A stretch of DNA of 36,198 nt from positions 1 through 36,198 of the forward strand of contig CATKHK010000168.1 in assembly GCA_949751835.1 (NCBI GenBank). The letters run 5' to 3'. Under the pieces are notes generated by a model, which saw nothing but the letters and a program-made list of their open reading frames with translations, searched no databases and was not told the DNA's origin. Positions 4,431 to 33,344 of the stretch are shown here, piece by piece. The stretch is from Blepharisma japonicum (lineage: Eukaryota > Ciliophora > Heterotrichea > Heterotrichida > Blepharismidae). Each line of letters starts with the position of its first letter. The stretch's first letter is position 1. Both the position numbers and the translations under genes were made by a program.

Positions 4431-4444
4431 TTTAGGTTGTTTCC

Positions 4445-5101: not shown

Positions 5102-6127
5102 TTAAATTATCAATCCATAAACTCCCCTAAATGCCAAAATTTGACTATAAACTGATAAAAAATTTAAAATGAGCTGAGAATCATCTTTGGCATCTCCATC
5201 TTCTGGATAAATTAAAGTTTCCCCTGCACCACCAGCTGCAATTAAAAACATTAATTCTTTTAATATTCTAAATTCTCCTCATAAAATTTCAACCGAATTA
5301 TAAGTTAGATATAGCGCATATGTAAAAAATGTAATCAAAGCATAAATCTTGCATATTTTTCATAAACTTTCTTCAATATGGATGCTATTTTTGCGCTTAT
5401 CTTGAAGTTCTGTTCAGACGAATGCAAAAAATTCATAGGTAAATGTATAGGAAATGAGAAAATAAAAAATAATCAAGTAGGCTATTAAAACGGAAAAGTA
5501 AAAAATAAACGTCGATAATGAAATATCAAAAATATCATAATTATTGAAAAAAATCCGTTTTAGAGTGAAAATTGTTGCAATTATAATAAGATAAAAATAT
5601 CCCATAGTAATACCAGATAAGTATTCTCTTCTTATGTCAAAATAAATGAGTTTAATAAATGTTAATACAAACAGTCCAATAGCTATTCCATATAATATCA
5701 AATACTCATTATCTAATGCTGAAACATTGTAAAGCAAGTAGAAAGCAGGATTTATCATTGCAAATAAGGAAGATCAATATGCTAGCTTTACTTGAGCATG
5801 CTTATATACGATAACCAGGGATATGAATCCTGATGTTCAAAATCCATATCAATAAATTAAGCCTGAATATTGAAGAAAATTAAGAAATCAGCTTCACAAG
5901 ATTCTTAAATAGTTTGTAGGATTAATTCTACTGAGAGCTAGGGATTCTTCATAGAGATAAAATTCGTCTTGATAAACTTCAATAATTTTCAAAGGGATAT
6001 AGTTGATAAAAAATAAGAAAAAGCAGTAATGAGTGACTTTTTCTTTATCCATACCTGGTGATAAGAGTCTTGTACCATAAATAAAGTCAAAAATGATTAA
6101 GCACAAAATGATAATCAAAATAACCAT
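5102..6127 (-). CDS. Family A multi-pass membrane protein
   Basis: The 342-codon frame runs from ATG at 6125-6127 to TAA at 5102-5104, without introns. It is close to the copy at 3402-4430 along its whole length. The differences are concentrated in the last membrane segments (YLIIFYFLISY for YMVGAYFLISY) and in the acidic tail after IYPEDG (DAKDDSQ for NFKDGYQ). The late loop reads QDKRKNSIHIEESL. It is followed upstream by a truncated B-II pseudogene and then by the intact B-I GTPase at 6936-7509, so this unit has lost most of its B-II and block T. Confidence 0.88.
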
Positions 6128-6369
6128 TTTAGGTTGTTTCCTTTATAAATTTAAGAAAAATATGCTCGCTCTCTAAGAATAAAAGAAAAATATTTTTCAA
6201 ACTATATTGCTTAGATATCTGATGCCTTTTGAGATAAGTAAGCCCAATAAGAAGAGATTGATACTAAAACGTTGAAAACATAAATAAATAATAGGATTAT
6301 ATATAAATCTATGCTAAAACTGAAAAGTTTTGGCTAAATATTTTAATGCATTTTGATTTTTTACCTTAT

Positions 6370-6605
6370 TTATTTGACCCTTAAGTTGTAATCATTTAGA
6401 ATAATTTCGCATAATAGCCGAAAAGTGCACTCTATATTAAAACCGATTTTCTCAGACACTTCTATATAAAAAATTTTACATTCATCAGCTAATTTTTTAG
6501 CTTCTTCATATGGGACTTCTCTTTGATTTTTTAAATTACATTTATTTCCTACCAGTATTATTGAAGGATTTTTACTTCAGAATTTTTAAAATAGCTCATA
6601 AACAG
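6370..6605 (-). pseudogene. B-II Rab-like GTPase, 5' truncated
   Basis: It begins within the ELFMSYFKNSE segment and keeps GNKC, the EEAKKLADE helix, a VSEKIGFN stretch in place of TSAKTGFN, and the LRVK-TAA end. One A is missing in the run before the GNKC strand, breaking the frame. NKCD is altered to NKCN. The 5' half, including P-loop and switches, was removed by a deletion that joins it to block S at 6605/6606. Confidence 0.8.
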
Positions 6606-6935
6606 TTCTAGATAAATTTGTAGGAGAACTTATTTATCATTGATATGAGGTATTATTTTTAGAAATAAAATTCTCAAAGTATATAGACTTGAAGGCAGAG
6701 GTGAGTGTAAAAAGTTACTAATAAGAAAAACTTAAAATCTTCAGGATATTAGCTCGTATAAGAATCATCAGTTCATATGCTCATACTCATATATCGCATT
6801 TTCAGAGCACAAAACATTTAATCAGAGATGAATTTAGGATTTCAAAAGCTTTAGAAATTAAACAAGATGATATTGATACTTAAAATTTGAAATGTAATAT
6901 ATTTAATGCTAATCAATGCTATTTAATTCTTGACC
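6606..6935. repeat. Block S, copy 1 (B-I downstream flank)
   Basis: This is a non-coding block found downstream of B-I GTPases, also at about 10366-10728, 20061-20443 and 31291-31682. Shared landmarks are agataaatttgtaggagaac and a gatgatattgatacttaaaa segment. I see no reading frame kept among copies. Confidence 0.65.
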
Positions 6936-7509
6936 TTATCTATCAGACCTTGCATTTAAATCCTTTAAAATAGTTTCACATAATAGCCGAAAAGTAGATT
7001 CTATATTAAAACCTGTTTTAGCAGACGTTTCTATATAAAAAATTCCTAATTCATCAGCTATTTTTTTAGCTTCTTCATATGAGACTTCTCTTTCATTTTC
7101 TAAATCACATTTATTTCCAACAAGGATTATCAAAGGCCTACTTGTATTATAATTTTTAATGTCGGTCATAAATACCTTCACATCTTCAATGGAACTTCTA
7201 TCAGCTACACTAAATATAAGGAGAAACCCAAAAATATGCCGATAGTAAGCAATATTTGTACCTCTATGACTCTTATCTCCACTTGTATCTCATGCTTGCA
7301 AAATAGAGTTGTTTTCTCTGTTGTTCACATGGTAATTACATATAGATCTGATTCTCTATCGTAGAAAATACAAAATATATGTCGATTGTGGGTATATATG
7401 CATCGCTAAAAACTCTATCAAAGTATTTAAGAAAAACTGCGGTTTTTCCAGTGCCAGAATTTCCTAAAATGCAAACTTTAATCAAGCTGCTTAAGAGTTA
7501 CTAATCCAT
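6936..7509 (-). CDS. Rab-like small GTPase, subgroup B-I (two mini-introns)
   Basis: It starts at ATG 7507-7509 and ends at TAA 6936-6938. Removing GTAACTCTTAAGCAG (7487-7501, 15 nt) and GTATTTTCTACGATAG (7356-7371, 16 nt) gives 180 residues. The fold is Ras/Rab: P-loop GNSGTGKT at 11-18, switch I Thr36, LQAWDTSGD at 60-68 with TGA as Trp63, NKCD at 122-125, ETSAK at 150-154. Canonical DTAGQ is DTSGD here, so the glutamine that positions the hydrolytic water is absent. Switch I is worn (TIDIYF for TIGIDF). The protein ends about nine residues after the last helix with no cysteine, so no prenylation site. GTP binding is likely; effector unknown. Confidence 0.88.
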
Positions 7510-8167: not shown

Positions 8168-9193
8168 TTAAATTATCAATCCATAAACTCCCCTAAATGC
8201 CAAAATTTGACTATAAACTGATAAAAAATTTAAAATGAGCTGAGAATCATCTTTGGCATCTCCATCTTCTGGATAAATTAAAGTTTCCCCTACACCACCA
8301 GCTGCAATTAAAAACATTAATTCTTTTAATATTCTAAATTCTCCTCATAAAATTTCAACCGAATTATAAGTGAGATATAGCGCATATGTAAAAAATGTAA
8401 TCAAAGCATAAATCTTGCATATTTTTCATAAACTTTCTTCATTATGGCAGCAATTTTTACGTTTATCTTGAAGCTCTGTCCAGACGAATGCAAAAAATTC
8501 GGAGGTAGATATATAGGAAATGAGAAAATAAGCACCCACCAGATATGCTATTACAACGGAAAAGCAAAAAATAAATGTCGATAATGAAATATCAAAAATA
8601 TCATAATTATTGAAAAAAATCCGTTTTAGAGTGAAAATTGTTGCAATTATAATAAGATAAATATATCCCACAGTAATAGCAGATAAATATTCTCTTCTTA
8701 TGTCATAATAAATGATCTTAATACATGTTAATATAAACAGTCCAATAGCTATTCCATATAATATCAAATACTCATTATTTAATGCTGAAACATTGTAAAG
8801 CAAGTAAAAAGCAGGATTTATCATTGCAAATAAGGAAGATCAATATGCTAGCTTTACTTGATCATGCTTATATACGATAACCAGGGATGTGAATCCTGAT
8901 ATCCAAAATCCATATCAATAAATTAAGCCTGAATATTGAAGAAAATTAAGAAATCAGCTTCATAACATTCTTAAATAGTTTGTAGGATTAATTCTAATGA
9001 GAGCTAGGGATTCTTCATAGAGATAAAGTTCGTCTTGATAAACTTCCAAAATTGTCAAAGGGATATAGTTGATAAAAAATAAGAAAAAACAGTAATGAGT
9101 GACTTTTTCTTTATCCATAGCTGGTGATAAGAATTTTGCACCATAAAATACGTCAAAAATGATTAAGCACAAAAGTATAATCAAAATCACCAT
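8168..9193 (-). CDS. Family A multi-pass membrane protein
   Basis: The 342-codon frame runs from ATG at 9191-9193 to TAA at 8168-8170. It is almost identical to the copy at 29187-30212, sharing ILTCIKIIY, YISTSEFFAFV and CCH in the basic late loop. The two therefore come from a recent duplication of a whole unit. Hydrophobic segments follow the family layout, with a short basic DIRREYLS loop in the middle and the KRKN loop before the last membrane segment. A TATAAA lies at 9208-9213. Its upstream neighbour is a B-II pseudogene 242 nt away. Confidence 0.9.
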
Positions 9194-9435
9194 TTTAGGT
9201 TGTTTCCTTTATAAATTTAAGAAAAATATGCTGCTCACTAAGAATGAAATTAAGATATTTCAAACTATATTGCTTTAGATATCTGATGCCTTTTAAGATA
9301 AGTAATCCCAATAAGAAGAGATTGATACTAAAACGTTGAAAATATAAATAAATAATAGGATTATATATATAAATCTATGCTAAAGTTTGAAAGTTTTGGC
9401 TAAATATTTTAATGCATTTTGATTTTTTACCTTAT

Positions 9436-10004
9436 TTATTTGACCCTGAAGTTGTAATCATTTAGAATAATTTCGCAGAATAGCCGAAAAGAGCATTCTA
9501 TATTAAAACCTATTTTCTCAGACACTTCTATATAAAAAATTCCTCATTCATCAGCTAATTTTTTAGCTTCTTCATATGGGACTTCTCTTTATTTTTTAAA
9601 TTACATTTATTTCCTACCAGTATTATCGAAGGATTTTTTACTTCAGAATTTTTAATATAGCTCATAACAGCTTTAATTTTTTATTGAGCTTCTATCAGTT
9701 ACAATAAATATAAGGAGAAATCCTAAAGCTTATAAATAATAAGTAAGAGCTATATTTCTTCATCTCATATCGTCACCTGTGTCTCATACCTGCAATGTAA
9801 ATGCATTATCTCTGTTCATGTCATATTTACTCATATATTTAATTTTCTATAGTAGAAAATACAAAATCCATGCCGATTGTGAGTATGCATGTATTGCTAA
9901 AAAAGCTATCAAAGTATTTAAGAAGGATTGAGGATTTTCCAGTGCTAGAATTTCCTATAATGCAAAGTTTAGCTATGGTGCTAAACTAGGAGTTACAGAT
10001 TCAT
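9436..10004 (-). pseudogene. B-II Rab-like GTPase, disabled
   Basis: It is full length from ATG 10002-10004. B-II intron 1 is GTAACTCCTAGTTTAG (16 nt) and intron 2 is GTATTTTCTACTATAG. The spliced start has an intact P-loop GNSSTGKS and a G3 region LQVWDTGDD. It is disabled by a TAA after TYYL (paralogues have Asp at this site) and by a one-base loss after the NKCxLK motif. The copy at 30466-31037 has the same TAA, so the stop predates their duplication. The end is LRVK-TAA. Confidence 0.8.
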
Positions 10005-10728: not shown

Positions 10729-11320
10729 TTATCTATCAGACCTTGCATTTCAATCATTTAAAATAATTTCACATAATAGCCGAAAAGTAAATTCTATATT
10801 AAAACCTGTTTTAGCAGACGTTTCTATATAAAAAATTCCTAATTCATCAGCTATTTTTTTAGCTTCTTCATATGAGACTTCTCTTTCATTTTTTAAATCA
10901 CATTTATTTCCTATAAGGATTATCAAAGGTCTACTTGCACTATAATTAATCAAAGGATCACTTGCATTATAATTCTTAATGTAGGTGTAAAATAACTTCA
11001 CATCTTCAATAGAACTTCTATCAGCTACACTAAATATAAGTAGAAACCCTATAGCATCATGATAGTAAGGACAATTTGTAGCTCTATCTCTACTTGTATC
11101 AAATGCTTGCAGAAGAGAGCTGCCTTTTCTGTTGTTCACATCATAATTACCTATAGATCTGCTTCTCTATTGTAAAAAATACAAATTCTAGGCCGATTGT
11201 GGGTATATATACATCGCTAAAAACTCTATCAAAGTATTTAAGAAAAACTGCGGTTTTTCCAGTGCCAGAATTTCCTAAAATGCCAACTGTAATTATGCTG
11301 CTTAAGAGTTACTAATCCAT
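10729..11320 (-). CDS. Rab-like small GTPase B-I with internal duplication and altered G3
   Basis: It starts at ATG 11318-11320 and ends at TAA 10729-10731. Introns are 11298-11312 (GTAACTCTTAAGCAG) and 11167-11182 (GTATTTTTTACAATAG). The product is 186 residues. The P-loop GNSGTGKT, switch I PTIGLEF, NKCD and ETSAK are present. The G3 motif reads FDTSRD, so both the invariant Gly and the Gln are lost and a short deletion follows. A 9-residue tandem repeat of the NYxASxPLI type sits just before the NKCD strand, shared with the copies at 20444 and 31683. Loss of the G3 glycine predicts that it cannot switch normally, so it may be on the way to becoming a pseudogene though still open. Confidence 0.8.
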
Positions 11321-11720: not shown

Positions 11721-12326
11721 TTAAATGCCTAATGCTTTATTTCTTGAACTTATTATATCTCTGTACTTTCAATTAAAATCATTTAGAATAGTTTCACATA
11801 ATAGCCGAAAAGTAGATTCTATATTAAAACTGTATTTGCAGACGTTTCTATATAAAAAATTCCCCATTCATCAGCTATTTTTTTAGCCTCTTCATATGAG
11901 ACTTCTCTTTCATTTTCTAAATCACATTTATTTCCTACAAGGATTATCAAAGGCCTTTTTGAATTATAATTTTTAATACATCCCATAAATAGCTTCACAT
12001 CCTCAAGTGAACCTCTATCAGTTACACTAAATATAAGGAGGAACCCTGAAGCAGCTTCATAATAAGAAATTGCTTCAATTCTATGTATCATATTGCCACT
12101 TATGTCTTTTACATGCAAAACAGAGGAGCCATCTCTGTTGTTTAAATGGTATTTACTAATATATTTAGCTCTCTATAGTAAAATATGCATGATCTATGCC
12201 GACTGTGGGCTTGTATGTATCGCTAAAAACGCCATCAAAGTATTTAAGTAAAATTGCAGTTTTTCCAATGCCAGAGTTTCCTATAATGCAAAGATTAACC
12301 ATGCTGCTTAAGAGTTACAAATTCAT
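11721..12326 (-). pseudogene. B-III Rab-like GTPase, single frameshift
   Basis: It starts at ATG 12324-12326. Intron 1 at 12304-12318 is GTAACTCTTAAGCAG. The intron 2 site at 12173-12188 reads GCATATTTTACTATAG, that is GC at the donor where the sister gene at 32738-33344 has GT. One G is missing in the GFN segment after ETSAN, giving a stop at 11819-11821. Past it the homologous frame continues to TAA at 11721-11723. The P-loop is GNSGIGKT and the G3 region is VKDISGN, lacking the WDT core. With all other motifs open this is a recent loss or a one-base sequence error. Confidence 0.7.
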
Positions 12327-12837: not shown

Positions 12838-15498
12838 TTAACTAATATAATTGAATTTTAAGATAATATTATCATTGTTAGAAACAGGATCATTTCTCTT
12901 GATCAAAATCCGGGTGTATTTTTCCATATATTTTTCACTTTTATGTGCTTGATTCATCATTTTATAACAAACTGCAATAATATTATATAATTTTTCAAAT
13001 AAATAGTGCTCAGAATAATTCCTCTTTAGGCGCTTTAATGATTTAATTAAGATTTCTTTTGCTTTTTGATAATTTTCTTGAATAAATCATACCAATGCTT
13101 TAATATAGCTCCTTTCAACAGAATTGGGTATTTTATCATAAGTAAATTTTTTAGATTCATTAATTCAGATTTTAACTTCTGTAACATTTTCTTTTATTAT
13201 AATTCATCAATAAGCTTGGTTTAAACAAAATGCAAAATGTGTTTTTAAGTTTTTGACTTTCATTTTTCTATGTAAATAAGCAGCTTCTATAAAAAAATTT
13301 TCGGATTCTTCAAGATTTATTAATAAATTTGAAACCGCAATATTGTTATATAAATTAAATATAATTTCGAATGATTCAAGCTTTATTCCAAAAATGTAGA
13401 AAGATTTTGCAAAATAATCAACAGATTGTTTTAGCTCTTGTTTCAATCCATAAAAAACGCCTATATGTAGGAATAAATCACCTAATTTTGGATTATCATA
13501 GGCACAACATTGTTCAAAAAGTTTGGTTGACTCCAAAAATAAATCAATAGCGGCGTCATATTTACTGGATATGTAATATAAAGTGCCTATGAGGTAATTA
13601 AATTTTAAAAATTGCCATTTATCTAATAATTTTTTTGAGTTTAAATATATTTTTCATTTCATAAGCCATGATTCAGATTCTTCATAATCTTTTAAATAAA
13701 TACTTTTGAGTGCATTTAAACAGTAAATTTCACCTTTTTCATCACTATCATGCTGCAGCAATACTTTTCTATTTTGTTGCCAAATATCAATAAGAGTATT
13801 TACCTGATCTATATTCTGACTAAATAAATAAAATGTGCATAAAATATCATAAAACAAAAAGCTATTATTGTTTTTATCCTTCAACTTCTCTATTTTTTCA
13901 TTTAATCTCTGTATTCGATTATCAGCTTCATTGAAATTGTGAGTTATAATATAAAATTCAAAAATATTAAGCTCTATAATAAAATAAAGCCAATTAGAGT
14001 TAGGATTTTTTTGACAAAAATTAATGCTTCTTCACAAAAATAGTTCACATTTTTCAAAATTTACTTCACTCAATTTAATATTTCCAAGAATCCTGTATGC
14101 AGAACTAAATTTCATAGTTTCTATAAACTCAGAATTTTTGCATAATTTTAAACATTTTTTTGCCATTTTTTTAGCTTGCTCAAATTCAAAATTTTTTAAA
14201 TAGAGCTCAGACAGTTTAAGATATATATCTATCAGATTTATTTTTTTGTATTTCTGTGATTTATTTTTTGCTTTTAGATAATGCTGTTTTGACTTTTCAA
14301 AATTGTTCAGATAATTATAAGCTTCTGCTAGTTTAAAATGCAAATTAATATAAATTTGATAATTTTTTGGTTTTTTCTTGCATAGATTTATGCCAAAAAT
14401 ATACTTTTCTATTGCTATTTCATACTCGCCTTTCAAAATATGAAATTCTGCTATATTTAAATACCAATTCTGCAATTCAGATTGTGAGTTAATGACTGAA
14501 GAGTCAATGGAATTTTCGCATTTATCATAGTAAAATTTTGCATTTTCTAAATCTAGTCTGCTTTGATATAAAAATCCAATATAAAGTCATATATAAAATT
14601 TTTCTCGCTCATCTTGAACTCCTTCTTCGCACTCTAGGCTATATTTTATAGCTTTTTTATAGTTTTCGATAGAAACATAAATCCTTGACACTTCATAAGC
14701 AATTAAATTTTTTTTAGCAGGAAATGTTAATATGAGATTCTTTTTAGTTTGCTTTATTGATAAACTTATTTCTGCTGTTTCTTTTTCTCTAAAAATTTGA
14801 TCTGTGACGCTTAAGGCTAAATTTAAAATTTCTTTACAAATATTTGAATATGAAATTACTTTTTCACTTATTGACTTGCACAATAAAAATGATATTTTAG
14901 CATAGTAATATTTTTTAAACCATAAGCATTCAATTCCTCTTTGGTAAGAAAAAGCGAATAAATCATTATTATTTTCTAATATCCAATTAATTTCACATCC
15001 CATTAGATCAATGAGTGTAAAATAATTAAAATTGTAAATATGAAGGATAATTTTTTCAATTTGTAAAAAATCTATCACATCGTTTTGGAATATATTTTCT
15101 AAGGAAATTTCTTCAATAAATTTATTTGTTTCATCCTGAGGTCTACTTAAAAAGAATTCTATTGGACTAAGAAATAAATCATTTTTAATATATTTTGCAT
15201 TCTGAACAAATTCCAATAAGTTGTCAACTTGCTTAATTTGCCTGCATAATTCACTATGATATCTTGCATCTGTTCTAGGTAGAGATAGACTTGAATTTAT
15301 AATAGATTTTATTTGCTCTAAATATAAAAATAGTTTCTTTCGAGATTCTTCGTCAATATTTATGTATAAACTTATAATGATTTTGTTTAATAAATCAGAG
15401 CACTTGTGATCTTCTACATGATTTTTGCAAAGATAGGTCGAACAAGCACAAAAGCTTAATGCATCTTCTCTACAGACTTCGCAAATTATATTTTCCAT
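12838..15498 (-). CDS. B-box-like zinc finger + TPR-repeat protein
   Basis: One open frame of 887 codons runs from ATG 15496-15498 to TAA 12838-12840, with in-frame TGA as Trp (for example at 14585 and 13535) and no intron. The N terminus has a compact zinc-binding pattern C6, C9, C17, C19, C24, H27, H31, C33, like a B-box or related cross-brace finger. The middle has helical pairs of TPR type, clearest at about residues 342-490 (AEFHILKGEYEIAIEKY, LAEAYNYLNNFEKSKQHY, LSELYLKNFEFEQAKKMA), and weaker repeats follow to about 870. TPR solenoids bind other proteins and the finger may also be a protein contact; the partner is unknown. It interrupts the GTPase array and is unrelated to its neighbours. 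Confidence 0.88.
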
Positions 15499-15649: not shown

Positions 15650-15900
15650 GAAGCTATGGAATTTTCATATAAGCCTAATGGTGCATTTATATTATATCTT
15701 GTTTTAAAGAGCTTCTATTTATAAAATATCTCTCAAACCCAAATTTTAGCTTTTTTATTAGAGTTTTTCATGATTTATAGTCACATTTATTTGCAATTAT
15801 ATTTCAAACTATTTTTTGTGCAAAATCATTAAATAGTCCAATCATAGATTCAATTCTTAAGTGGCTGCTATCAGTTGCATACAAGTACTCCTTAGATTAT
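15650..15900 (-). pseudogene. Old GTPase relic retaining NKCD
   Basis: A heavily diverged stretch follows the family B order: TDSS (paralogues VTDRSS), a helix, a hydrophobic strand ending in ANKCD, then a Lys-rich helix. Stops and shifts occur in the C-terminal part. The relic ends at a sharp junction with a family A fragment near 15917. It is more decayed than any other copy and hence older. Confidence 0.5.
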
Positions 15901-15916
15901 TACTTGCCTCATAATT

Positions 15917-16095
15917 AGGAAAAAGGAGGTTTCGCTCTGATAAAAGTCAAAAAGTGCTAAAGGAATATAGTTTACAAAGAAAAGAAAAAATCAACTAAAT
16001 ACAGCTTTTTCACCCTTTTCAGTTGGACCTAAATACTTTTGGGAATAAAATCAGTCAAAAATTGCCAAGCTAAAAACAATAATTCAGATAACCAT
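15917..16095 (-). pseudogene. Family A N-terminal fragment
   Basis: From ATG 16093-16095 about 59 codons match the start of the gene at 605-1636 (SLAIFDWFYSQKYLGP, then EKAVFSWF and VNYIPLALF). The match stops after the FYQSETSFF-like segment, where it abuts the older GTPase relic. It is the left edge of a segmental duplication of 1455-3060. Confidence 0.8.
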
Positions 16096-16339
16096 TTTAT
16101 AAACATATAATGTAATAATTTCTACCGGATCAGTAATTAGACCATTTAAATGGAAATAAGACTTTCAGCTAAGAATGTTTATTTTAAAAAATTAATTTGT
16201 TAATAACAGAGGGTAAATTTCTTAATAAAAATCGTGATTTTTTTAATTATTTATTCGCTACTGAGGTGAGATTGACCAGAAAATATCTACTGAAAAAAGT
16301 AGTGGCCAAAAGACATGCTACAGAGTTTATGTGTGTCTC

Positions 16340-18876: not shown

Positions 18877-19112
18877 TTTAGATTGTTTCCTTTATAAATT
18901 TAAGAAAATATGCTCGCTCTCTAAGAATAAAAGAAAGATATATCCAAACTATATTGCTTAGATATCTGATGCCTTTTGAAATAAGTAAGCCCAATAAGAA
19001 GAGATTGATACTAAAACGTTGAAAACATAAATAAATAATAGGATTATATATAAATCTATGCTAAAGCTGAAAAGTTTTGGCTAAATATTTTAAATTATTT
19101 TAACTTTTTATC

Positions 19113-21392: not shown

Positions 21393-22167
21393 TTAAATTA
21401 TCACTTAAAAACTCCTCTAGCTACTAAAATTTGGTTATATAAAGAGATAAAATTTAATATGCGTTGAACCATACCATTGGAATTCCCATCTTCTGGATAA
21501 ATTAAAGCATCCTTCGTCCCTAGAGTGCCAATATAAGCATTGCTTCTTTTAAAACTAAAAATTCTCCTCATAGATTTTCAACTAAATAATAAGCTAATAT
21601 AGAGCATATGCAAAAAATATAATTAAAGCATAAATCTGGCATATTTTTCATAGACTGTCTTCAATATGGGTGCATTTTGTGCGTTTTTCTTTAAGTTCTA
21701 TATAAGTTAATTCAAGATGCTCACAGGTGCATATATAGAATCAAGAAAATAAAAAAGTAGCAAGCCCGCTATTAAAACGGAAAAACAAAAAATTTAGGAA
21801 TAATGATGAAATATCAAAAATATCCAAATTATTGTAAAAAAAACGTTTTAGAGCAAAAATTGTTGCAGATATCATAAGGTAAATATATTCCACAATAATA
21901 TTAGACAAATATTTACTTCTTATGTCATAATAAATGATCTGTGTTAATATAAATAGTCCAATAGCTATTGCATATAATATCAAGTACTCATTATTTAATG
22001 CTGAAACATTGTAAAGCAAGTAGATAATAGGATTTATCATTGCAAATACGGAAGATCAATATGTTGCCTTTTCTTGAGCATGATTATATACAATAACTAG
22101 GAATGCAAATCCTGATATTCAAAATCCATATAAATAAATTGAGCTTGAATGTTGAAGAAAATTAATA
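21393..22167 (-). pseudogene. Family A (subgroup of 34006-35031), 5' truncated and frameshifted
   Basis: It begins inside the LINFLQHSSSIYLYGFWISG segment, so the first ~80 codons are absent. It continues with INPIIYLLYNVSALNNEY and DISSLFLNF, then shifts frame at an extra T near 21790, and shifts again close to the C terminus. At about 22167 the truncated end is joined to the inner part of block R, the same break used at 4963. Confidence 0.82.
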
Positions 22168-22305
22168 AGGAATTAAAAAGACTGATAAATAAGTCAAAAA
22201 TGGCACGGTCAATTAACGAAAAACCTTAATAATTTTTTTTTCGGGTTTATTAAATCGTAAACAAGTAAAAATAATAAAATTTTTAAATATCAGCATTAAT
22301 ATCGA
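22168..22305. repeat. Partial block R, second fused copy
   Basis: It starts at ggaattaaaaagactgataaataag, directly after the truncated family A copy. It is about 90 bp of R, then the 3' flank of the next A gene. Confidence 0.65.
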
Positions 22306-23331
22306 TTAAATTATCAATCCATAAACTCCCCTAAATGCCAAAATTTGACTATAAACTGATAAAAAATTTAATATGAGCTGAGAATCATCTTTAGAGTTTC
22401 CATCTTCTGGATAAATTAAAAAAACTCCTGAACAACCAGCTGCAATTAAAAACATTAATTCCTTTAATATTCAAAATTCTCCTCATAAAATTACAACCGA
22501 ATTATAAGTGAGATATGACGCATATGTAAAAAATGTAATCAAAGCATAAATCTTGCATATTTTTCATAAACTTTCTTCAATATGGCAGCAATTTTTGCGT
22601 TTATCTTGAAGCTCTGTTCAGACGAATGCAAAAAATTCATAGGTAAATCCGTAGGAAATGAGAAAATAAATACTTACCATGTATACAATTAAAACGGAAA
22701 AGCAAAAAATAAACGTCGATAATGAAATATCAAAAATATCAAAATTATTGAAAAAAATCCGTTTTAGAGTAAAAATTGTTGCAATTATAATAAGATAAAT
22801 ATATCCCACAGTAATACCAGATAAATATTCTCTTCTTATGTTAAAATAAATGAGTTTAATAATTGTTAATATAAAAAGCCCAATAGCTATTCCATATAAT
22901 ATCAAATACTCATTATTTAATGCTGAAACATTGTAAAGCAAGTAGAAAACAGGATTTATCATTGCAAATAAGGAAGATCAATATGCTAGCTTTGCTTGAG
23001 TATACTTATATACAATAACTAGGGATGTGAATCCTGATGTCCAAAATCCATATCAATAAATTAAGCTTGAATATTGAAGAAAATTAAGAAATCAGCTTCA
23101 TAAGATTCTTAAATAGTTTTTAGGATTAATTCTACTGAGAGCTAGGGATTCTTCATAGAGATAAAGTTCGTCTTGATAAACTTCAATAATTGCCAAAGGG
23201 ATATAGTTGATAAAAAATAAGAAAAAGCAGTAATAAGTGACTTTTTCTTTATCCTTATCTGGTGATAAGAATCTTGCAGTATAAAATACGTCAAAAATGA
23301 TTAAGCACAAAAGTATAATCAAAATAACCAT
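22306..23331 (-). CDS. Family A multi-pass membrane protein
   Basis: The 342-codon frame runs from ATG 23329-23331 to TAA 22306-22308, intronless. It is closest to 17851-18876. Odd points are AAGCSGVFLIYPEDGN in the late loop, where sisters have AAGGAGETLIYPEDG, and FLSPDKDKEKVTYYC near the start. The hydrophobic segments and the basic loops are unchanged, so it appears functional. A TATAAA is at 23346-23351. A B-II pseudogene lies 243 nt upstream. Confidence 0.88.
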
Positions 23332-23574
23332 TTTAGGTTTGTTCCTTTATAAATTTAAGAAAAATATGCTCGATCTCTAAGAATAAAAGAAAGATATATC
23401 CAAACTATATTGCTTAGATATCTGAATGCCTTTTGAAATAAGTAAGCCCAATAAGAAGAGATTGATACTAAAACGTTGAAAACATAAATAATAGGATTAT
23501 ATATAAATCTATGCTAAAGTTGAAAGATTTTTACTAAATATTTTAAATGTCTTTTATTTTTTTATCTTATTTAT

Positions 23575-24137
23575 CTATTTGACCCTTAAGTTGTAATCAT
23601 TTAGAATAATTTCGCATAATAGCCAAAAAGTGCATTCTATATTAAAGCCTATTTTCTCAGACACTTTTATATAAAAAATTCCTCATTCGTCAGCTAATTT
23701 TTTAGCTTCTTCATATGAGACTTCTCTTTGATTTTTAAATCACATTTATTTCCTACCAGTATTATCAAAGGATTTTTTGATTCAGAATTTTTAATATAAC
23801 TCATAAAAAGCTTTACATCATCAATTGAGCTTCTATCAATTACACTAAATATAAGGAGAAATTCTAAAGAATCTGGATAATAAGCAAGAGCTACATTTCT
23901 TCATCTCATATCGCCACCTGTGTCTCATACTTACAATGAATTATCTCTGTTCATATCATATTTACTCATATATTTAATTTCTATAGTAGAAAATACAAAA
24001 TCTATGCCGATTGTGGGCATGATGTATTGCTGAAAAAGCTATCAAAGTATTTAAGGAGGATTGAGGATTTTCCAGTGCTAGAATTTCCTATAATGCAAAG
24101 TTTAACCATGGTGCTAAACTAGGAGTTACAGATTCAT
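23575..24137 (-). pseudogene. B-II Rab-like GTPase, several frameshifts
   Basis: It runs from ATG 24135-24137 to TAG 23575-23577. The P-loop GNSSTGKS is intact. It shares with 19113-19684 the base loss before switch I, the TAA in front of VWDTGGD and the base loss after NKCDLK. It also lacks one A right after intron 2. The 5' flank is cut at about 24196, where it is fused to the middle of another family A copy. Confidence 0.8.
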
Positions 24138-24196
24138 TTTATAATAACTTTTATAACTCCATTTTCTCATGAAAAGACGTGAAATTTAAAAGATGG

Positions 24197-24724
24197 AAGA
24201 GTAAGGTAAATATATCCCACAATAATATTAGACAAATATTCACTTCTTATGTCATAATAAATGATCTGTGTTAATATAAATAGTCAAATAGCTATTGCAT
24301 ATAATATCAAATACTCATTATTTAATGCTGAAACATTGTAAAGTAAGTAGAAAATAGGATTTATCATTGCAAATACGGAAGATCAATATGCTGCCTTTTC
24401 TTGAGCATGCTTATATACAATAACTAGGAATGCAAATCCTGATATTCAAAATCCATATAAATAAATTAAGCTTGAATATTGAAGAAAATTAATAAATCAG
24501 CTCCATAAGATTCTTAAATAGTTCTTAGGATTAGTTGTACTGAGAGCTTCTTCATAGAGAGAAATGTCTTCTTGATAAGCTTCAAAAAATGCTAGAGGGA
24601 TATATTTGATAAAAAATAAGCAATAATAAGCATTTTTTTCTCGATCCATAGCTGGCGATAAGAATCTTGCAGCATAAAATAAGTCAAAAATGATCAAGAA
24701 CAGAAGAGTAATCAAAATTACCAT
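24197..24724 (-). pseudogene. Family A, 3' truncated
   Basis: From ATG 24722-24724 the frame is open for about 176 codons (MVILITLLFLIIFD, YGFWISGFA, INPIFYLLYNVSALNN, IVGYIYL). At about 24196 it is joined to the upstream flank of the neighbouring B-II pseudogene. All later membrane segments and the C-terminal domain are missing. A two-codon deletion lies in the second hydrophobic segment. Confidence 0.82.
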
Positions 24725-24912: not shown

Positions 24913-25483
24913 CTACCTAGCCCTTGAATTTAAATCATTTAGAATAGTTTCACATAATAGCCGAAAAGTAAATTCTATATTAAAACCTGTGTTTGCAGAT
25001 GTTTCAATATAAAAAATTCCCCAATCATCAGCTATTATTTTAGCTTCTTCATATGAGACTTCTCTTTCATTTTCTAAATCACATTTATTTCCAACAAGGA
25101 TTATCAAAGGCCTTCTTGCATTATAATTTTTAATATAGCTCATAAATAGCTTCACATCCTCAAGGGAACTTCTATCAGTTACACTAAATATAAGAAAAAA
25201 CCCTAAAGTATTTCGATAATAAGAAATAGTTGTAGTTCTATATCTCATATCGCCACTTGTGTCTCATGCTTGCAAAACAGAGGCACCATCTATATTGGTT
25301 GCATCGTATTTACTTATATATTTGATTTTCTATAGTAGAAAATACAAAATCTATGCCGATTGTGGGTATGTATGTATTACTAAAAACGTCATCAAAATAT
25401 TTAACAAGAATTGCTGTTTTTCCAGTGCCAGAGTTTCCTATAATGCAAAGTTTAATCACGCTGCTTAAGACTTACTGATCCAT
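24913..25483 (-). CDS. Rab-like small GTPase, subgroup B-I' (best-preserved switch regions)
   Basis: It starts at ATG 25481-25483 and ends at TAG near 24913. Introns are GTAAGTCTTAAGCAG (25461-25475) and GTATTTTCTACTATAG (25330-25345). The product is 179 residues. Motifs: GNSGTGKT 11-18; PTIGIDFKIKYI, the most Rab-like switch I here; LQAWDTSGDMRYRT with Trp encoded by TGA; NKCD; ETSAN in place of ETSAK. Switch II Gln is Asp, and the tail ends LNSRAR without cysteine. It sits just upstream of the truncated A copy at 24197, paralleling the pair 35292/34006. Confidence 0.9.
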
Positions 25484-26180
25484 TTTATAAAAATTTGTAT
25501 TTATTATCAGTCCCTCATTAATTATAATTCTTACGACAAAAATGGCTATGCCTCACCATTTCACTCTTTTTCTAAGAATAATATTTAAAAAGCCACAATA
25601 AATCATTTATAGAAATATATTTTAATTATGACTGCAGTAGAGAAACGAATATAATTGATTTATTCAATTATCAGCTTATAATCAGATAAATAGCGTTGCT
25701 TATAATTTATAAACGCTAAGACAGTTAGAAAAAAGCGCGTTGGAGGTTATTGCGCACCACATAAGACAGTATTAAGGACATAAAAAAGTTTATTAACTAT
25801 TTAAGTTTTTCTAATTTCTCAATTTTTTTATTATATATGGAGGAGAACTTCTAAATTTACCAAAAATTCAAGTTCAGGTTTGATAGAAAATAATCACATG
25901 AATTTATTTATTTCAGAGATTAATAATTAATTATAAGTTGGCATTATTTAATATCAAATTAAAATCCATTTTTAAGTTTTAGTGAGAGGCTAATAAATTG
26001 TGCAGAGAAATATTAGATTATGAAGTATTATATCATTTTCATTAATCATTCCTTATTCTATAGAAGATTTAAAGAATTCTATAAATTGAAGTGATTAATT
26101 TATCGTTAGCATTTATGCATAAACTTATGAAAAAATTTAAACTCTTAATCATCATATTTTTATAATAATTAATTATACTT
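25484..26180. other. Long spacer between GTPase and kelch/UDG-like gene
   Basis: The first ~75 bp match the flank upstream of 35859 (atggctatgcctc...ccattt). The rest is unique. Near 25690-25770 it is less AT-rich, with an imperfect palindrome (agcgtt...aacgct) and a gcgcgttggaggttattgcgc stretch. No reading frame or RNA gene is recognised. Confidence 0.4.
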
Positions 26181-27766
26181 CTAGTGATAAATAAATGAAT
26201 ATGCTAATTGAAACTGCTTGGATTCTTGAAACTTTTTGATTTTCTCTTCATTTGTTGATAGCAAACTGGCATTTCTTATTACAAGATGCTTAGATTGGTC
26301 AATAAATGCTGAATGGTTTCTTGCCTCTTTTCCCCATAGCATAAAAACCGCCTTATTCAAAATGGAATTTAAAATGTGAGCCATTTCAATCACAAATTCA
26401 TTAAATTTATTTGATGTTTCTATTGCCATATTCCTAAAAGCAACTGCAGGGCTAAGAACAATAATATCTTTTTTCAATTTTATCCAATGATGATTCAAAT
26501 CTATACTTCGACGAATCATACTAACCTTTTCAACTAGCCTACCATAATCAATTAGTTTTTTCTTTGGCATTGAAATCAAAATAATAATTTTTATAGTTCT
26601 TGGGTCTTTTTTAAAAATTTCGAAAAAATAATTTAATCTTTCATCAATTTCTAAATTATCAAATCATATTTCATTATCTGGACTTTTATTCAAAACTGAA
26701 GGGAAAAGTCCAAGATTTTCCTTTTGCAATACGATGAAGCTTCAAATTTGGTTTATGGCAGCAATTATTGTAGGACTAAGCAGATCTCTCCATAAAGGTA
26801 GGAATGATTTTAGTGTCTTTTCAAAAATTACTGAGCAGTCTAATCTATGAATTCCCCTTACAATATCTGGATTAGTTTTACTTATCTCTGCATCGATTTT
26901 ATTATGTCTCAATTCAAACTTTATCATATCTTGATTAAGAGTCATAATATAAACATCATTATGGTAATTTAGCCAATAAGAAAACTTACCAATTCCCCAC
27001 CTCTTAACGACCCCCATAAATTTTCATTTATAAAACACATTATTTTTAATAATATTTTTATTAATTATGTTTTAAATGATTTTGAATTACTATATTTTCA
27101 TTCATCTCAATCTCACAGGCCTAATGAGTATAAATATCCATCAGAATCAACAGCATATAGATTTTCTTGAAGTGTAAACAGATGCTTTGGTCCGCCTATA
27201 TCAATACTGCTCATAGTAGATTTAGAATTAGTCAAAATATCATAAACTTCAAAAGTGTGTCATTTTCAATCACTTGAAATAATGACATAATCATTAATCA
27301 ATGCACACGAATAATAAGTATGATTATTTCCCCCAAAAATAGTAAAATAAATATTTCTATATATATCTAGCTTATATCACTTTTTAAACCCAAATATGTA
27401 TACCATATCATTTTTATAATAAACTGCAATCGCTCTTGATATTTCTTTATGTGATGGTATTTTAAATTTAAATATATTCCCTTGAGAATCTAAAGAAAAT
27501 AAAACGCTTGAATCCTTCTGATTATGATGCCAAAAGCAAAGAACTTTATTATTTGGGAGTGCACAAAGAATCCAAAATTGCTTTTGTGCAAATTCCTCTG
27601 AATGAATTTGCATTAAACTCTTAGAATAATCATTTACATTTAAAAACCATGTATGCTCCGGTCTATGCTCTCGATAAAAATAAATATTAGAATTTGGTAT
27701 AGCTTCAGATTTGTGAGATACAATAGAGCTTGCAACTGCTTTTGGTGTTATATGTCGGTGCGACAT
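26181..27766 (-). pseudogene. Kelch-like propeller + UDG-like pseudoenzyme, interrupted by 74-nt insert
   Basis: From ATG 27764-27766 to TAG 26181-26183 the span is 1586 nt. Leaving out a 74-nt insert (27029-27102) makes exactly 504 codons. Residues 1 to about 270 look like beta-propeller blades of kelch type (VYIFG, LYAVDSDGYLYSL). Residues about 300-503 follow family-1 uracil-DNA glycosylase: a WRDLL start, FP segment, a KIIIL strand, an IVLSP strand, then MLWG at 451-454 and ID...H. The catalytic loop (GQDPYH in the enzyme) is ISMPKKK at 373-379, and the HPSPLS loop is NASLLS. Both catalytic residues are therefore gone. As written the insert adds a TAA; if it is removed from the nuclear copy or transcript the gene is functional. 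Confidence 0.75.
27020..27102. mobile_element. 74-nt AT-rich insert with 9-bp direct repeats (IES candidate)
   Basis: ATTTTCATT occurs at 27020-27028 and again at 27094-27102. One repeat plus the 65 nt between them is absent from the paralogue at 27839-28815, and its removal restores the reading frame exactly. It is almost entirely A/T and has no GT...AG ends of mini-intron size. The size and the flanking repeat fit an internal eliminated sequence of a ciliate; a small duplication or transposon footprint is the alternative. Confidence 0.5.
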
Positions 27767-27838
27767 TTTTATTATATGAATAGCTATAACTTATTTTAAT
27801 TTTCAAAAAGTAATTTTTGAATTTTATATATAATTATT

Positions 27839-28815
27839 TTATTGATAAAGATATGAGTGTGCTAATTGGAACTGCTTGAGCCCAGCAAACTTTTTATATT
27901 TTTCAGAACTAGTGTCCCATGAAAATATATTTGAATTTTTTATAATTAGATGCTTTGATTGATCAATAATTTCTGAGCATCTTCTTGCTTCCCCTCCTCA
28001 TAGCATAAATACGGCTTTCATCAACATGGAATTTAAAACTTTTGCCATTTCAATCATATATTCATTAAATGTATTAAATGTTTCTCCAGTCATATGATTT
28101 AAAACTACTAATGGGCTAAGCACAATAATTTTTTTTTTCAATTTTGACAATGTTTTATCAGCATCTAAACTTTTCCTTATTGCATTTATTTCCAGAATTA
28201 ACGAATTAAAGTCTACTGGTTTCTTAGGTTTTGATATTAAAATAACAATTTTTTTGGTTTTTAGCCCTTTCACTCTAAATAACTCAAAAAAATAATTTAT
28301 TTTTTCATAGGCTTCTGCATTAAAGAATCAGCTAGATCTACCTGGAGAATTTTCTAAAACTGTAGGAAAAATACCGATGTTTTTATTCTCTATTGCAATA
28401 AAATACCAGAATATTTTTAGTGCTTTAGTTATTGCAGGACTAAGTATTTTTTTTCATACTGGGAGAATATCAAAATTTTTATCTTCATAAATTCTTGAGC
28501 GATTGATCTCGTGAATTTCTCTTTGAGGATTGGGGGAGGTTTTGATTAATTCAACATTGAGGTTATTTTGCTTCATATCAAATTTTAAAATATTAAAATT
28601 TTCAGTTATTATATAAACTTCGCTATTCCAATAAAGCCAATAAGAAAAATTCTCAATTTGTCAAGGCTCTATAGATCCAATAAACTTCCATTCATCTGAA
28701 TTTCACAGTTCTAATGAAAATAAATATCCGCAAGCATCAGCTGCATAAACATTTTCATCGATAGAAAACAAATGTTTTGCCTTGCCTATTTCAATATTAT
28801 TCATAACTGAATTAT
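27839..28815 (-). pseudogene. Kelch/UDG-like gene, 5' truncated by block R
   Basis: It is a paralogue of 26181-27766, 73 nt downstream of it in transcription order. It is open from the block R junction at about 28815 to TAA 27839-27841, with the insert absent. About the first 200 residues (most propeller blades) are missing. The UDG-like part is complete: a WKKILSPAI start, GIFPTVL, KIVILISKPKKP in place of the GQDPYH loop, an IIVLSPLVVL strand, MLWGGEARR, IDQSKHL and NSNIFS in place of HPSPLS. It has no start codon of its own near the junction, so it is probably dead. Confidence 0.75.
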
Positions 28816-29186
28816 ATGAATTAAAGTTGGCTTTTAAAAGTTTGGAATATTAATAAAAAGAGAGCTTAAACTGTTTGAAATTTCTTTTTGATTGCAGGAA
28901 ATTGCCAATATATAAATTTTTGTTTTTGCACTAATATGCAATAAATGCAAAGTATCAAGCATTTGCATTTGAAAGGACTTGAAAAAACTTAAAACATAAT
29001 GCAGTTAATTGCAATTTGGACAATAAAGAAATTTAATTTAAGGGTTTTTAAAACCTAAGGAATTAAAAAGACTGATAAATAAGTCCAAAAATGACATATT
29101 CAATTAACAAAAAGACTTTAATAATATTTTTTTTCGATGTATTAAAATCGTAAACAAGCACAACAATAAAATTTTAAATTTCAGGA
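28816..29186. repeat. Block R, copy 4
   Basis: It starts at tatgaattaaagttgg exactly where the kelch/UDG-like gene is cut and runs to about 29135. It has a perfect 9-bp hairpin, AAATGCAAA 28943-28951 and TTTGCATTT 28962-28970. No gene is seen. Confidence 0.75.
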
Positions 29187-30212
29187 TTAAATTATCAATC
29201 CATAAACTCCCCTAAATGCCAAAATTTGACTATAAACTGATAAAAAATTTAATATGAGCTGAGAATCATCTTTGGCATCTCCATCTTCTGGATAAATTAA
29301 AGTTTCCCCTACACCACCAGCTGCAATTATAAACATTAATTCTTTTAATATTCTAAATTCTCCTCATAAAATTTCAACCGAATTATAAGTGAGATATAGC
29401 GCATATGTAAAAAATGTAATCAAAGCATAAATCTTGCATATTTTTCATAAACTTTCTTCAATATGGCAGCAATTTTTGCGTTTATCTTGAAACTCTGTCC
29501 AGACGAATGCAAAAAATTCGGAGGTAGATATATATGAAATGAGAAAATAAGCACCCACCAGATATGCTATTACAACGGAAAAGCAAAAAATAAATGTCGA
29601 TAATGAAATATCAAAAATATCATAATTATTGAAAAAAATCTTTTTTAGAGTGAAAATTGTTGCAATTATAATAAGATAAATATATCCCACAGTAATACCA
29701 GATAAATATTCTCTTCTTATGTCAAAATAAATGATCTTAATGCATGTTAATATAAACAATCCAATAGCTATTCCATATAATATCAAATACTCATTATTTA
29801 ATGCTGAAACATTGTAAAGCAAGTAGAAAGCAGGATTTATCATTGCAAATAAGGAAGATCAATATGCTAGCTTTACTTGAGCATGCTTATATACGATAAC
29901 CAGGGATATGAATCCTGATATCCAAAATCCATATCAATAAATTAAGCCTGAATATTGAAGAAAATTAAGAAATCAGCTTCATAACATTCTTAAATAATTT
30001 GTAGGATTAATTCTACTGAGAGCTAGGGATTCTTCATAGAGATAAAGTTCGTCTTTATAAACTTCCAAAATTGTCAAAGGGATATAGTTGATAAAAAATA
30101 AGAAAAAGCAGTAATGAGTGACTTTTTCTTTATCCATAGCTGGTGATAAGAATCTTGCACCATAAAATACGTCAAAAATGATTAAGCACAAAAGTATAAT
30201 CAAAATTACCAT
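29187..30212 (-). CDS. Family A multi-pass membrane protein
   Basis: The 342-codon frame runs from ATG 30210-30212 to TAA 29187-29189. It is the near-twin of 8168-9193; scattered changes include IYFDIRREYLSG for IYYDIRREYLSA and LKKIFF for LKRIFF. The late basic loop is QDKRKNCCHIEESL. It heads the best-preserved full unit of the array: block R, this gene, a B-II copy with an open frame but one stop, blocks T and S, an intact B-I and an intact B-III. Confidence 0.9.
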
Positions 30213-30465
30213 TTTAGGTTGTTTCCTTTATAAATTTAAGAAAAATATGCTCCAATCTCTAAGAATAAAGGAAAAATATATCCAAACCATATTGCTGTAG
30301 ATATCTGATGCCTTTTGAGATAAATAAGCCCAATAAGAAGAGATTGATACTAAAACGATAAAAACATAAATAAATAATAGGATTATATATATATAAATCT
30401 ATGCTAAAGCTGAAAAGTTTTGGCTAAACATTTTAAATGCATTTTGATTTTTTAACCTTATTTAT

Positions 30466-31037
30466 CTATTTGACCCTTAAGTTGCAATCATTTAGAATAA
30501 TTTCGTATAATAGCCGAAAAGTGCATTCTATATTAAAACCTATTTTCTCAGACACTTCTATATAAAAAATTGCTCATTCATCAGCTAATTTTTTAGCTTC
30601 TTCATATGAGACTTCTCTTTGATTTTTTAAATCACATTTATTTCCTACCAGTATTATTGAAGGATTTTTTACTTCAGAATTTTTAATATAGCTCATAAAC
30701 AGCTTTAAATCTTCAATTGAGCTTCTATCGGTTACAATAAATATAAGGCGAAATCCTAAAGCTTATGAATAATAAGCAAGAGCTATATTTCTTCATCTCA
30801 TATCGCCACCTGTATCTCATACTTGCAATGTAAATGCATTATCTCTGTTCATGTCATATATATTCATATATTTAATTTTCTATAGTAGAAAATACAAAAT
30901 CTATGCCGATTGTGGGTATGCATGAATTGCTGAAAAAGCTATCAAAGTATTTAAGAAGGATTGAGGATTTTACAGTGCTAGAATTTTCTATAATGCAAAG
31001 TTTAACTATGGTGCTAAACTAGGAGTTACAGATTCAT
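30466..31037 (-). pseudogene. B-II Rab-like GTPase, one TAA and a mutated P-loop
   Basis: From ATG 31035-31037 to TAG 30466-30468, removal of two 16-nt introns gives exactly 180 codons in frame. A single TAA follows AYYS (Asp in sisters), at the same site as in 9436-10004. The P-loop is ENSSTVKS, losing two of its glycines, so nucleotide binding would fail even with readthrough. NKCD and WDTGGD are intact, but ETSAK is EVSEK. It is the least frameshifted B-II copy. Confidence 0.82.
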
Positions 31038-31682
31038 TTTATAATAACTTTTATAACTCCATTTTCTCATGCAAAAATGTCAACTTCCCTTCAACAGGCA
31101 AAAAAAATTAATAAGGCAAAAATCATTTATTCATAATTAAAAAAAAAGTTAATAAATCTATTATGATTAATTAGCAATAGTAAAAGCCCACATGCCATGC
31201 AAAGCCGGGTTTGAATAGCCCCATTAAGCTCATTGACACTATTTTTTTGCCTCTGAAGACCCTACCTCTCATTCAATTTCAGCATTTCAAAGAAAAAAAA
31301 TCATGAAATTTGAGATAATCAGAATGTTTATATATAAACGCATGATTCCAGATAAATTTGTAGGAAAATTTATTTATCATAGATATGAGGTATTTATTTT
31401 TTAGAAATAAAATTCTCAGAGTATATAGGCTTGAAGGCAGGAGGTGAGTGTAAAAAGTTACTAATAAGAAAAATCTTAAAATCTTCAAGATGTAAGCTCG
31501 TATAAGAATCATCAGTGTATGTGCTCATACTCATATATCAAATTTTATCAGATTCCAACACATTTAATCAGAAATGAATGTAGGACTTCAAAAGCTTTAG
31601 AAAGTAAACAAGATGATATTGAATACTTAAAACTTGAAATGTAATATATTTAATGCTAATAAATGCTATTTAATTTTTGACA
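31038..31682. repeat. Spacer with blocks T and S, copy 4
   Basis: Block T is at about 31180-31290 (gccgggtttgaatagcccc), block S at about 31291-31675. A minus-strand frame of 77 codons inside S is not kept in the other S copies and is not called. Confidence 0.6.
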
Positions 31683-32283
31683 TTATCTATCAGTCCTTGC
31701 ATTTAAATCATTTAAAATAGTTGCACATAATAGCCGAAAAGTAGATTCTATATTAAAACCTGTTTTAGCAGACGTTTCTATATAAAAAATTCCTCATTCA
31801 TCAGCTATTTTTTTAGCTTCTTCATATGAGACTTCTCTTTCATTTTCTAAATCACATTTATTTCCAACAAGGATTATCAAAGGCCTACTTGCACTATAAT
31901 TAATCAAAGGCCAACTTGCATTATAATTTTTAATGTAGTTCATAAATACCTTCACAATCTCAATGGAACTTCTATCAGCTACACTAAATATAAGTAGAAA
32001 CCCTTTAGCATTTTGACAGTAAGTAATATTTGTACCTCTCTGTCTCTTATCTCCACTTGCATCTCATGCTTGCAAAAGAGAGCGGCCTTGTCTGTTGTTC
32101 ACATCGTAATTACTTATAGATCTGATTCTCTATCGTAGAAAATACAAAATCTATGCCGACTGTGGGTATATATGCATCGCTAAAAACTCTATCAAAGTAT
32201 TTAAGAAAAACTGCGGTTTTTCCAGTGCCAGAATTTCCTAAAATGCGAAGTTTAATCATACTGCTTAAGAGTTACTAATCCAT
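31683..32283 (-). CDS. Rab-like small GTPase B-I with 9-residue insert
   Basis: It starts at ATG 32281-32283 and ends at TAA 31683-31685. Introns are 32261-32275 (GTAACTCTTAAGCAG) and 32130-32145 (GTATTTTCTACGATAG). The product is 189 residues. GNSGTGKT, PTVGIDF, NKCD and ETSAK are intact. G3 is WDASGDKRQRG, with Thr to Ala and Gln to Asp. The NYxASxPLI repeat precedes the NKCD strand. The tail ends LNARTDR without cysteine. It lies between the disabled B-II and the intact B-III, in the fullest unit of the window. Confidence 0.87.
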
Positions 32284-32737
32284 TTCAAAAACTTTTATTT
32301 ATTATAAGTCCATTTTCTCATCATAATAATATATGTTTTTATAAATGCTAGAAAAAATTAAATAGTTTACACTTTTGTATGAATTTTTCAAGAATGTCTA
32401 TTTGATTTGAATATGATTATATTTCTGACAACAACAAAGGGCATGCTTCGCCATTTAACTTTTTCTAACTTAAAAGAGTTTAATTTATAGAAAACAGCTG
32501 ATCCGGTTGTATTTTTTAGCTTTTGAGGTATTTATAGTATATCTTTTTAATTTGCATTAGTTTATAGTAAACGTTTTATAATTGTTTTTTTACGTGTAAC
32601 AAAATAGGTAATTTAAAATTTATATTGCTTTCAAGATCTAAAGTCTTTTAAAGTTAGCAAGTCAAAAAGGATATTGATACTTAAAATTTGAAATCTAATA
32701 TGATTAAAAATAAATTTCTATGCTAAAAGCTAAATTT
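32284..32737. repeat. Block U, copy 4
   Basis: Upstream flank of the B-I gene (aaagggcatgcttcgccatt at about 32436) and 3' flank of the B-III gene. Nothing coding is seen. Confidence 0.55.
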
Positions 32738-33344
32738 TTAAATGCCTAATGCTTTATTTCTTGACCTTATTATATCTCTGTACTTTCAATCAAACTCATT
32801 TAGAATAGTTTCACATAATAGCCAAAAAGTATTTTCTATATTAAAACCTGTATATGCAGATGTTTCTATATAAAAAATTCCCCAGTCATCAGCTATTTTT
32901 TTAGCCTCTTCATATGAGACTTCTCTTTTATTTTGTAAATCACATTTATTTCCTACAAGGATAATCAAAGGCCTTTTTGGATTATAATTTTTAATATATC
33001 CCATAAATAGCTTCACATTCTCAAGTGAACTTCTATCAGTTACACTAAATATAAGGAGAAACCCTGAAGCAGCTTCATAATAAGAAATAGCTGCAATTCT
33101 ATATACTATATTGCCACTTGTGTCTCGCACATGCAAAACAGAGGAGCCATCTCTGTTGTTTAAATGATATTTACTAATATATTTAGCTCTCTATAGTAAA
33201 ATATACATAATCTATGCCGACTGTGGGTCTGTATGTATCGCTAAAAACACCATCAAAGTATTTAAGAAAAATTGCAGTTTTTCCAGTGCCAGAGTTTCCT
33301 ATAATGCAAATTGTAACCATGCTGCTTAAGAGTTACAAGTCCAT
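32738..33344 (-). CDS. Rab-like small GTPase, subgroup B-III (longer tail)
   Basis: It starts at ATG 33342-33344 and ends at TAA 32738-32740. Introns are 33322-33336 (15 nt) and 33191-33206 (GTATATTTTACTATAG). The product is 191 residues. The P-loop GNSGTGKT, PTVGIDY, NKCD and ETSAY are present. The G3 region is HVRDTSGN: the Trp before Asp is replaced by Arg and Gln is Asn. An in-frame TGA near the end is read as Trp, since the frame then continues WKYRDIIRSRNKALGI to TAA; the sister at 11721 has nearly the same extension. The tail is basic, with no cysteine, so it could bind acidic lipids weakly. Confidence 0.85.

Follow-up and report, generated by a model that had tools for sequence, protein, structure and literature searches.

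Does the repeated side-by-side arrangement of two gene families mean that their products work together? The question is raised by a 36,198-bp stretch of DNA from the ciliate Blepharisma japonicum (referred to here as the window), which is the entire contig CATKHK010000168.1 (C168) of GenBank assembly GCA_949751835.1 (45.19 Mb in 224 contigs). Throughout the array that fills it, minus-strand genes for a family of predicted multi-span membrane proteins, named family A, take turns with genes for Rab-like GTPases. A sequence-only reading proposed that this linkage, kept through many duplications, reflects joint action of the two proteins. Our analysis does not bear this out: the repeated unit is probably part of a birth-and-death tandem array that has grown by block duplications sweeping up neighbouring genes.

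The repeated unit is real and is present at all four places named for it. Self-BLAST of the window against itself (E ≤ 1e-10, matches of at least 100 bases counted) yielded 140 direct and no inverted matches, in line with the earlier claim that family A and the GTPases keep to one strand. In transcription order, each of the four complete units contains a GTPase that we equate with B-I of the sequence-only reading (7.5, 11.3, 21.0 and 32.3 kb) and then, beyond a spacer, a B-II GTPase that is broken or truncated (6.5, 10.0, 19.7 and 31.0 kb) and an intact family A gene (5.1, 8.2, 17.9 and 29.2 kb), followed by a downstream stretch, formerly labelled R, that recurs at 3.0, 7.8, 17.5 and 28.8 kb. 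The order first described therefore stands from B-I to R in four of four units, but its leading B-III gene is found in only two, broken at 12.3 kb and intact at 33.4 kb. Partial copies lie at 1.9, 3.4–4.9, 22.3–24.1, 24.2–25.5 and 34.0–35.9 kb. The array has a guanine-plus-cytosine (GC) content of 0.267 and is more AT-rich than eight other Rab loci of the same genome (0.304–0.350); a search for RNA families and tRNAs found none.

The units match one another as direct blocks, which supports an origin by block duplication; those at 7.8–12.4 and 28.8–33.4 kb, for example, align in two pieces (95.2% and 88.6%). The self-matches show that blocks of roughly 2 to 4.6 kb have been duplicated head to tail, with family A as the probable core of the array, its open frames kept. 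Because the unit copies descend from such duplications, their linkage cannot be counted as retained independently in each. Three lines of evidence separate linkage from joint action.

First, family A occurs where these GTPases were not found. A genome search with family A, in which 40 candidates were scored, gave 35 match rows, with some genes split over two rows: 15 on C168, 6 on C56, 11 on C94 and 3 on C215; a weak match on C27 (26%, E 5e-4) was to a divergent family A copy of C94. In each of two GTPase searches 150 candidates were scored (of 309 and of 307), and among these scored candidates, matches above 52% identity fell on C168 and C56 alone. On C56, from 282 kb to the end, a tblastn search with six window GTPases recovered two genes together with two relics of first exons; the same search gave nothing on the first 30 kb of C94 or on C215. 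Within the scope of these searches, the GTPase clade is present on two of the four contigs with clear family A matches, and the expectation that family A always stands beside such GTPases, a check that the sequence-only reading itself had proposed, fails on C94 and C215. Both C56 GTPase genes splice to 178-residue open frames with the intron plan of the window copies; the nearest family A gene is about 5 kb away from one and 9.5 kb away from the other. Also on C94, a frame at C94:24857-25330 resembles what we take to be a reverse-transcriptase-associated zinc-finger fragment, and a long low-complexity stretch at C94:15213-16143 is open in several frames.

Second, the GTPase that most often adjoins family A is dead. 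B-II is broken or truncated in six of six window copies, and it is the nearest upstream GTPase of six of the eight intact family A genes (3.4, 5.1, 8.2, 17.9, 22.3 and 29.2 kb). The gene at 34.0 kb has an intact B-IV as its nearest upstream GTPase, and the upstream neighbour of the gene at 1.9 kb is the family A gene at 3.4 kb. No intact GTPase belongs to three of the intact family A copies (1.9, 3.4 and 22.3 kb), and the intact GTPase at 25.5 kb adjoins a truncated family A copy. The divergence of B-II equals that of intergenic DNA or is slightly smaller (smaller in five of six pairs), and its copies are broken; GTPase copies that adjoin family A in the common unit have been left to decay. 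Family A diverges less than intergenic DNA in six of six unit pairs, from 0.020 versus 0.064 to 0.070 versus 0.078. Five copies of its A-I subgroup all have 341 codons, and their flanks hold 36 gap runs, none a multiple of three; the copy at 3.4 kb is one codon longer. Residues 205–238 of A-I (as in the copy at 29187–30227) show raised change among the five copies, with 13 synonymous and 24 nonsynonymous changes (scan p 0.002–0.008 for all changes, 0.03–0.17 for nonsynonymous ones); this is not taken as a mark of selection, since synonymous change is raised too.

Third, other genes are linked just as tightly. All 12 match rows of a gene for a TPR protein fall on C168 and C56, the two contigs to which the GTPase clade was also traced. 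A gene pair at 26106–28823 is an inverted copy, 95–97% identical, of C132:79740-82568, and the match ends no more than 8 bases from the start of the unit at 28.8–33.4 kb. The C132 copy reaches further upstream and has one TAA within its match, and C132 has no family A match. Block duplication and insertion in this locus thus sweep up whatever genes adjoin. Copying-in by the same kind of block duplication is seen for the gene pair, and the anchor-less GTPases and the TPR gene may have arrived in that way too.

Several observations weigh against this reading. Among the scored candidates, the GTPase clade was found solely on contigs that also carry family A. In five cases a family A gene and a neighbouring GTPase gene are both intact (units at 5.1, 8.2, 17.9 and 29.2 kb and the 34.0/35.9-kb pair), which joint function would also predict. 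Constraint on family A is weak: its divergence is similar to that of the upstream flank in one comparison (0.114 versus 0.110), and its nonsynonymous-to-synonymous rate ratio (omega) is 0.35–0.71 over 28 pairs, or 0.41–0.80 after correction for the mutational spectrum, with p<0.05 in one of six pairs tested of the 28. For B-I, omega is 0.93–2.35 over six pairs, or 1.0–2.5 in the test against neutral, and significantly off neutral in none. The best GTPase matches outside the clade, among the scored candidates, are on C132 (52% at 76558 and 49% at 72755), and the GTPases and the gene pair may share a C132 source or have arrived together.

The first two of these points would suit a partnership in which the multi-span protein brings a Rab-like GTPase with no lipid anchor to its membrane and the genes stay linked so as to be expressed jointly, and a protein anchor would make sense for GTPases that carry no C-terminal cysteine (none of the seven intact copies in the window and neither of the two on C56, with introns and stops as predicted). 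We regard this as rather improbable, given family A genes on C94 and C215 without such GTPases, the uniformly dead B-II copies, the distance of the intact C56 GTPases from family A, the equally tight linkage of the TPR gene and the gene pair, and tail-less Rab-like genes elsewhere in the genome, on contigs with no family A match. Collapsed or mis-joined repeats in the assembly are a very unlikely source of some of the copies or of their order. C56 carries near-identical duplicate pairs of the A-III subgroup close to its end (C56:299881-302612 and C56:315198-317926), and a 100-N gap lies inside one of these copies, so that the number of copies there may reflect the assembly; C168 itself begins inside an A-III copy. 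Against this, the copies differ by several per cent and have distinct indels.

The gene models rest on traits that mark a heterotrich-type genome, as the sequence-only reading had supposed. Family A frames are open only if TGA is read as tryptophan, GTPase genes have putative introns of 15 and 16 nt, and the telomere repeat CCCTAACA is abundant (168 matches to three telomere units, against none for a reversed control). The report on the Blepharisma stoltei somatic genome (PMC9942806) gives the same three traits, UGA as tryptophan, introns of 15 and 16 bp and CCCTAACA telomere repeats, which are thus common to both genomes. Its main text contains none of the words GTPase, Rab, tandem or transmembrane, and the array is thus unmentioned under them; no description of the array or of family A was found in the literature searched.

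What, then, is family A? Alongside eight intact frames of 337–342 residues from the first methionine (typically about 341), the window holds no fewer than five copies that are broken or partial (about 0.6, 15.9, 16.3, 21.4 and 24.2 kb). The mean hydropathy profile of 21 members has 11 peaks, of which two adjoin each other, and this corresponds to about ten hydrophobic segments; with a stricter threshold, fewer segments are seen in individual sequences. None of 23 members matched Pfam at E 0.1 (one had a below-cut-off match to HemY_N, E 0.44), none of three matched NCBIfam at E 0.01, and a family profile gave only two chance-level matches in the PDB (E 0.48 and 0.55). The family thus remains, as first described, multi-span and without recognised relatives. 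AlphaFold2 obtained no fold for nine window copies (mean predicted local distance difference test score, pLDDT, 48.1; predicted template-modelling score, pTM, 0.29). A likeness of the C-terminal part to GOST-type seven-span proteins was considered and dropped when no match of any kind appeared. Family A is a predicted membrane protein, most likely receptor- or transporter-like. Chemoreceptor arrays and other tandem families of multi-span proteins that evolve by birth and death are clustered, lie mostly on one strand, are weakly constrained and contain many broken copies. The family A array resembles them in clustering, strand bias, weak constraint and abundance of broken copies; unlike them, family A has no Pfam or NCBIfam match and only chance-level PDB matches.

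The window has 14 recognisable GTPase copies, of which seven are intact, five are near full-length but broken and two are fragments. In all seven intact copies, the predicted gene plan places a 15-nt intron after 8 coding bases and a 16-nt intron after the switch I region. Their description as Rab-like is well founded: the G1, G4 and G5 motifs (GNSGTGK[T/S], NK[C/S]D and ETSA) are present in seven of seven, both window GTPases scanned match PF00071 (Pfam Ras), and the best PDB sequence matches are Rab3, Rab27, Ypt1 and Rab8. The switch II motif DTAGQ, with its catalytic glutamine, is a defining feature of Rabs. In the intact window copies it is replaced throughout, by DTSGD in four and by DASGD, DTSRD and DTSGN in one each, and both C56 GTPases have DTGGD at this position. 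We conclude that these are predicted Rab-like proteins without a lipid anchor. Short Rab-like GTPases on C26, C132 and C18 are also without a long C-terminal tail, and one ends in a single cysteine; they have tiny introns (four of six fetched loci were modelled, one with two alternative splicings). A Tetrahymena study (PMC2954822) describes 17 Rab-like proteins without prenylation residues, grouped apart from 56 Rabs. Rab-like sequence and the absence of a C-terminal prenylation cysteine are common to both sets; as differences from the Tetrahymena set, the GTPases here lie in a tandem array with a membrane family, have DTSGD for DTAGQ, include many dead copies and vary in switch II.

Of the surfaces through which a Rab binds its regulators, switch II is normally among the best conserved. 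We compared the four B-I copies (7.5, 11.3, 21.0 and 32.3 kb), with one column-counting rule throughout the flank comparison. In a switch II segment chosen after inspection of pairwise windows, 24 of 66 columns are changed against 65 of 496 in the rest of the gene, a 2.8-fold excess (p=1.5e-5) that persists when any one copy is left out (p 0.0002–0.0025). The segment also exceeds the B-I flanks (66 of 454, p=7e-5). The stretch after switch II is slightly above the flanks (22 of 96, p=0.047) and the 5' part is level with them (27 of 196, p=0.9), but the 3' third has changed less than they have (16 of 204, p=0.015). A position-shuffled scan of nonsynonymous changes over 25 codons gave p=0.0004, the smallest of eight scans. 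The broken B-II copies show no switch II excess (10 of 68 versus 65 of 491, p=0.7), nor does the B-IV pair (p=1), and that of the B-III pair is borderline (p=0.08). A mutational hotspot is not supported, as the broken B-II copies would be expected to show it.

The genes themselves stay open. Gap runs in B-I are of 3, 9 and 27 bases, all in frame, and 16 of 19 flank gaps are not multiples of three; the retained G1, G4 and G5 motifs suggest that the proteins still bind nucleotide. Divergence of B-I is close to intergenic and above it in three of five comparisons. A rival account is that B-I is just relaxed and heading for decay, with the switch II excess a product of gene conversion or chance. 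Divergence near the intergenic rate in five comparisons, an omega of about 1 and the loss of three switch II codons in one copy fit such a history, as do the 9 of 25 switch II minority bases that are common to another window class. The last fraction is higher outside switch II (34 of 77), so that conversion by another class of the window is not a favoured cause. Relaxation is an unlikely account when gaps are in frame only, the 3' third falls below the flanks and switch II exceeds the neutral rate, which relaxation alone does not give. The excess suggests diversifying selection on B-I, judged from these four sequences. In the four copies B-I stays open, and its switch II evolves more quickly than the DNA on either side of the gene. 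Under the block-duplication reading, the contacts of B-I with regulators or effectors would be diversifying, with no need for family A.

A more specific proposal casts the B-I proteins as decoys, or as recognition proteins, in some conflict, for instance with intracellular bacteria that act on Rabs, so that turnover and switch II change reflect an arms race. The excess over both flanks and the rest of the gene, its absence from broken copies and the many dead GTPase copies would all fit. We consider it highly improbable, with four copies only, no sign of any opponent and a nonsynonymous excess over neutral that is not significant in the wider segment (44 nonsynonymous and 7 synonymous changes, p=0.10). 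Equally doubtful is the broader idea that tandem anchor-less Rab mimics, with switch II under diversifying selection and a multi-span family beside them, form a recognition or decoy system derived from a trafficking GTPase.

Table 1. Coordinates of family A genes, GTPase genes and other genes carried in the array.
Feature	Position in window	Strand	Remarks
Family A	5102..6142	-	Intact (TGA=W)
Family A	8168..9208	-	Intact
Family A	17851..18891	-	Intact
Family A	29187..30227	-	Intact
Family A	3402..4445	-	Intact
Family A	22306..23346	-	Intact
Family A	34006..35088	-	Intact; 66% identity to main group
Family A, second subgroup (A-II)	1884..2906	-	Intact
Family A, third subgroup (A-III)	611..1636	-	Broken; one TAA within match
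Family A, A-III fragment and A-II copy	15892..17437	-	Both broken
Family A	21389..22172	-	Broken copy
Family A	24188..24724	-	N-terminal half alone
B-I GTPase	6936..7509	-	Intact; two putative introns (15, 16 nt)
B-I GTPase	10729..11320	-	Open frame; three switch II codons missing
B-I GTPase	20444..21041	-	Intact
B-I GTPase	31683..32283	-	Intact
B-III GTPase	32738..33344	-	Intact
B-IV GTPase	24913..25483	-	Intact
B-IV GTPase	35292..35859	-	Intact
B-II GTPase	9433..10004	-	Broken
B-II GTPase	19120..19684	-	Broken
B-II GTPase	23575..24137	-	Broken
B-II GTPase	30466..31037	-	Broken; in-frame stop codon
B-III GTPase	11770..12326	-	Broken near 3' end; intron 2 with GC instead of GT
B-II GTPase	4676..4970	-	Fragment
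B-II GTPase	6373..6582	-	Fragment
GTPase relics beside A-III copies	286-493 and 15628-15876		Nucleotide similarity to C56 GTPases alone
TPR protein	12838..15498	-	886 residues
Gene pair	26106..28823	-	No Pfam match at cut-off; 5' end of one gene missing

The locus illustrates how genes of a compact ciliate genome can come to resemble a functional module through block duplication, and how such an apparent module can be tested against paralogous contigs. It also presents a testable oddity: a class of Rab-like GTPases that keeps its reading frame while switch II outpaces the surrounding DNA.

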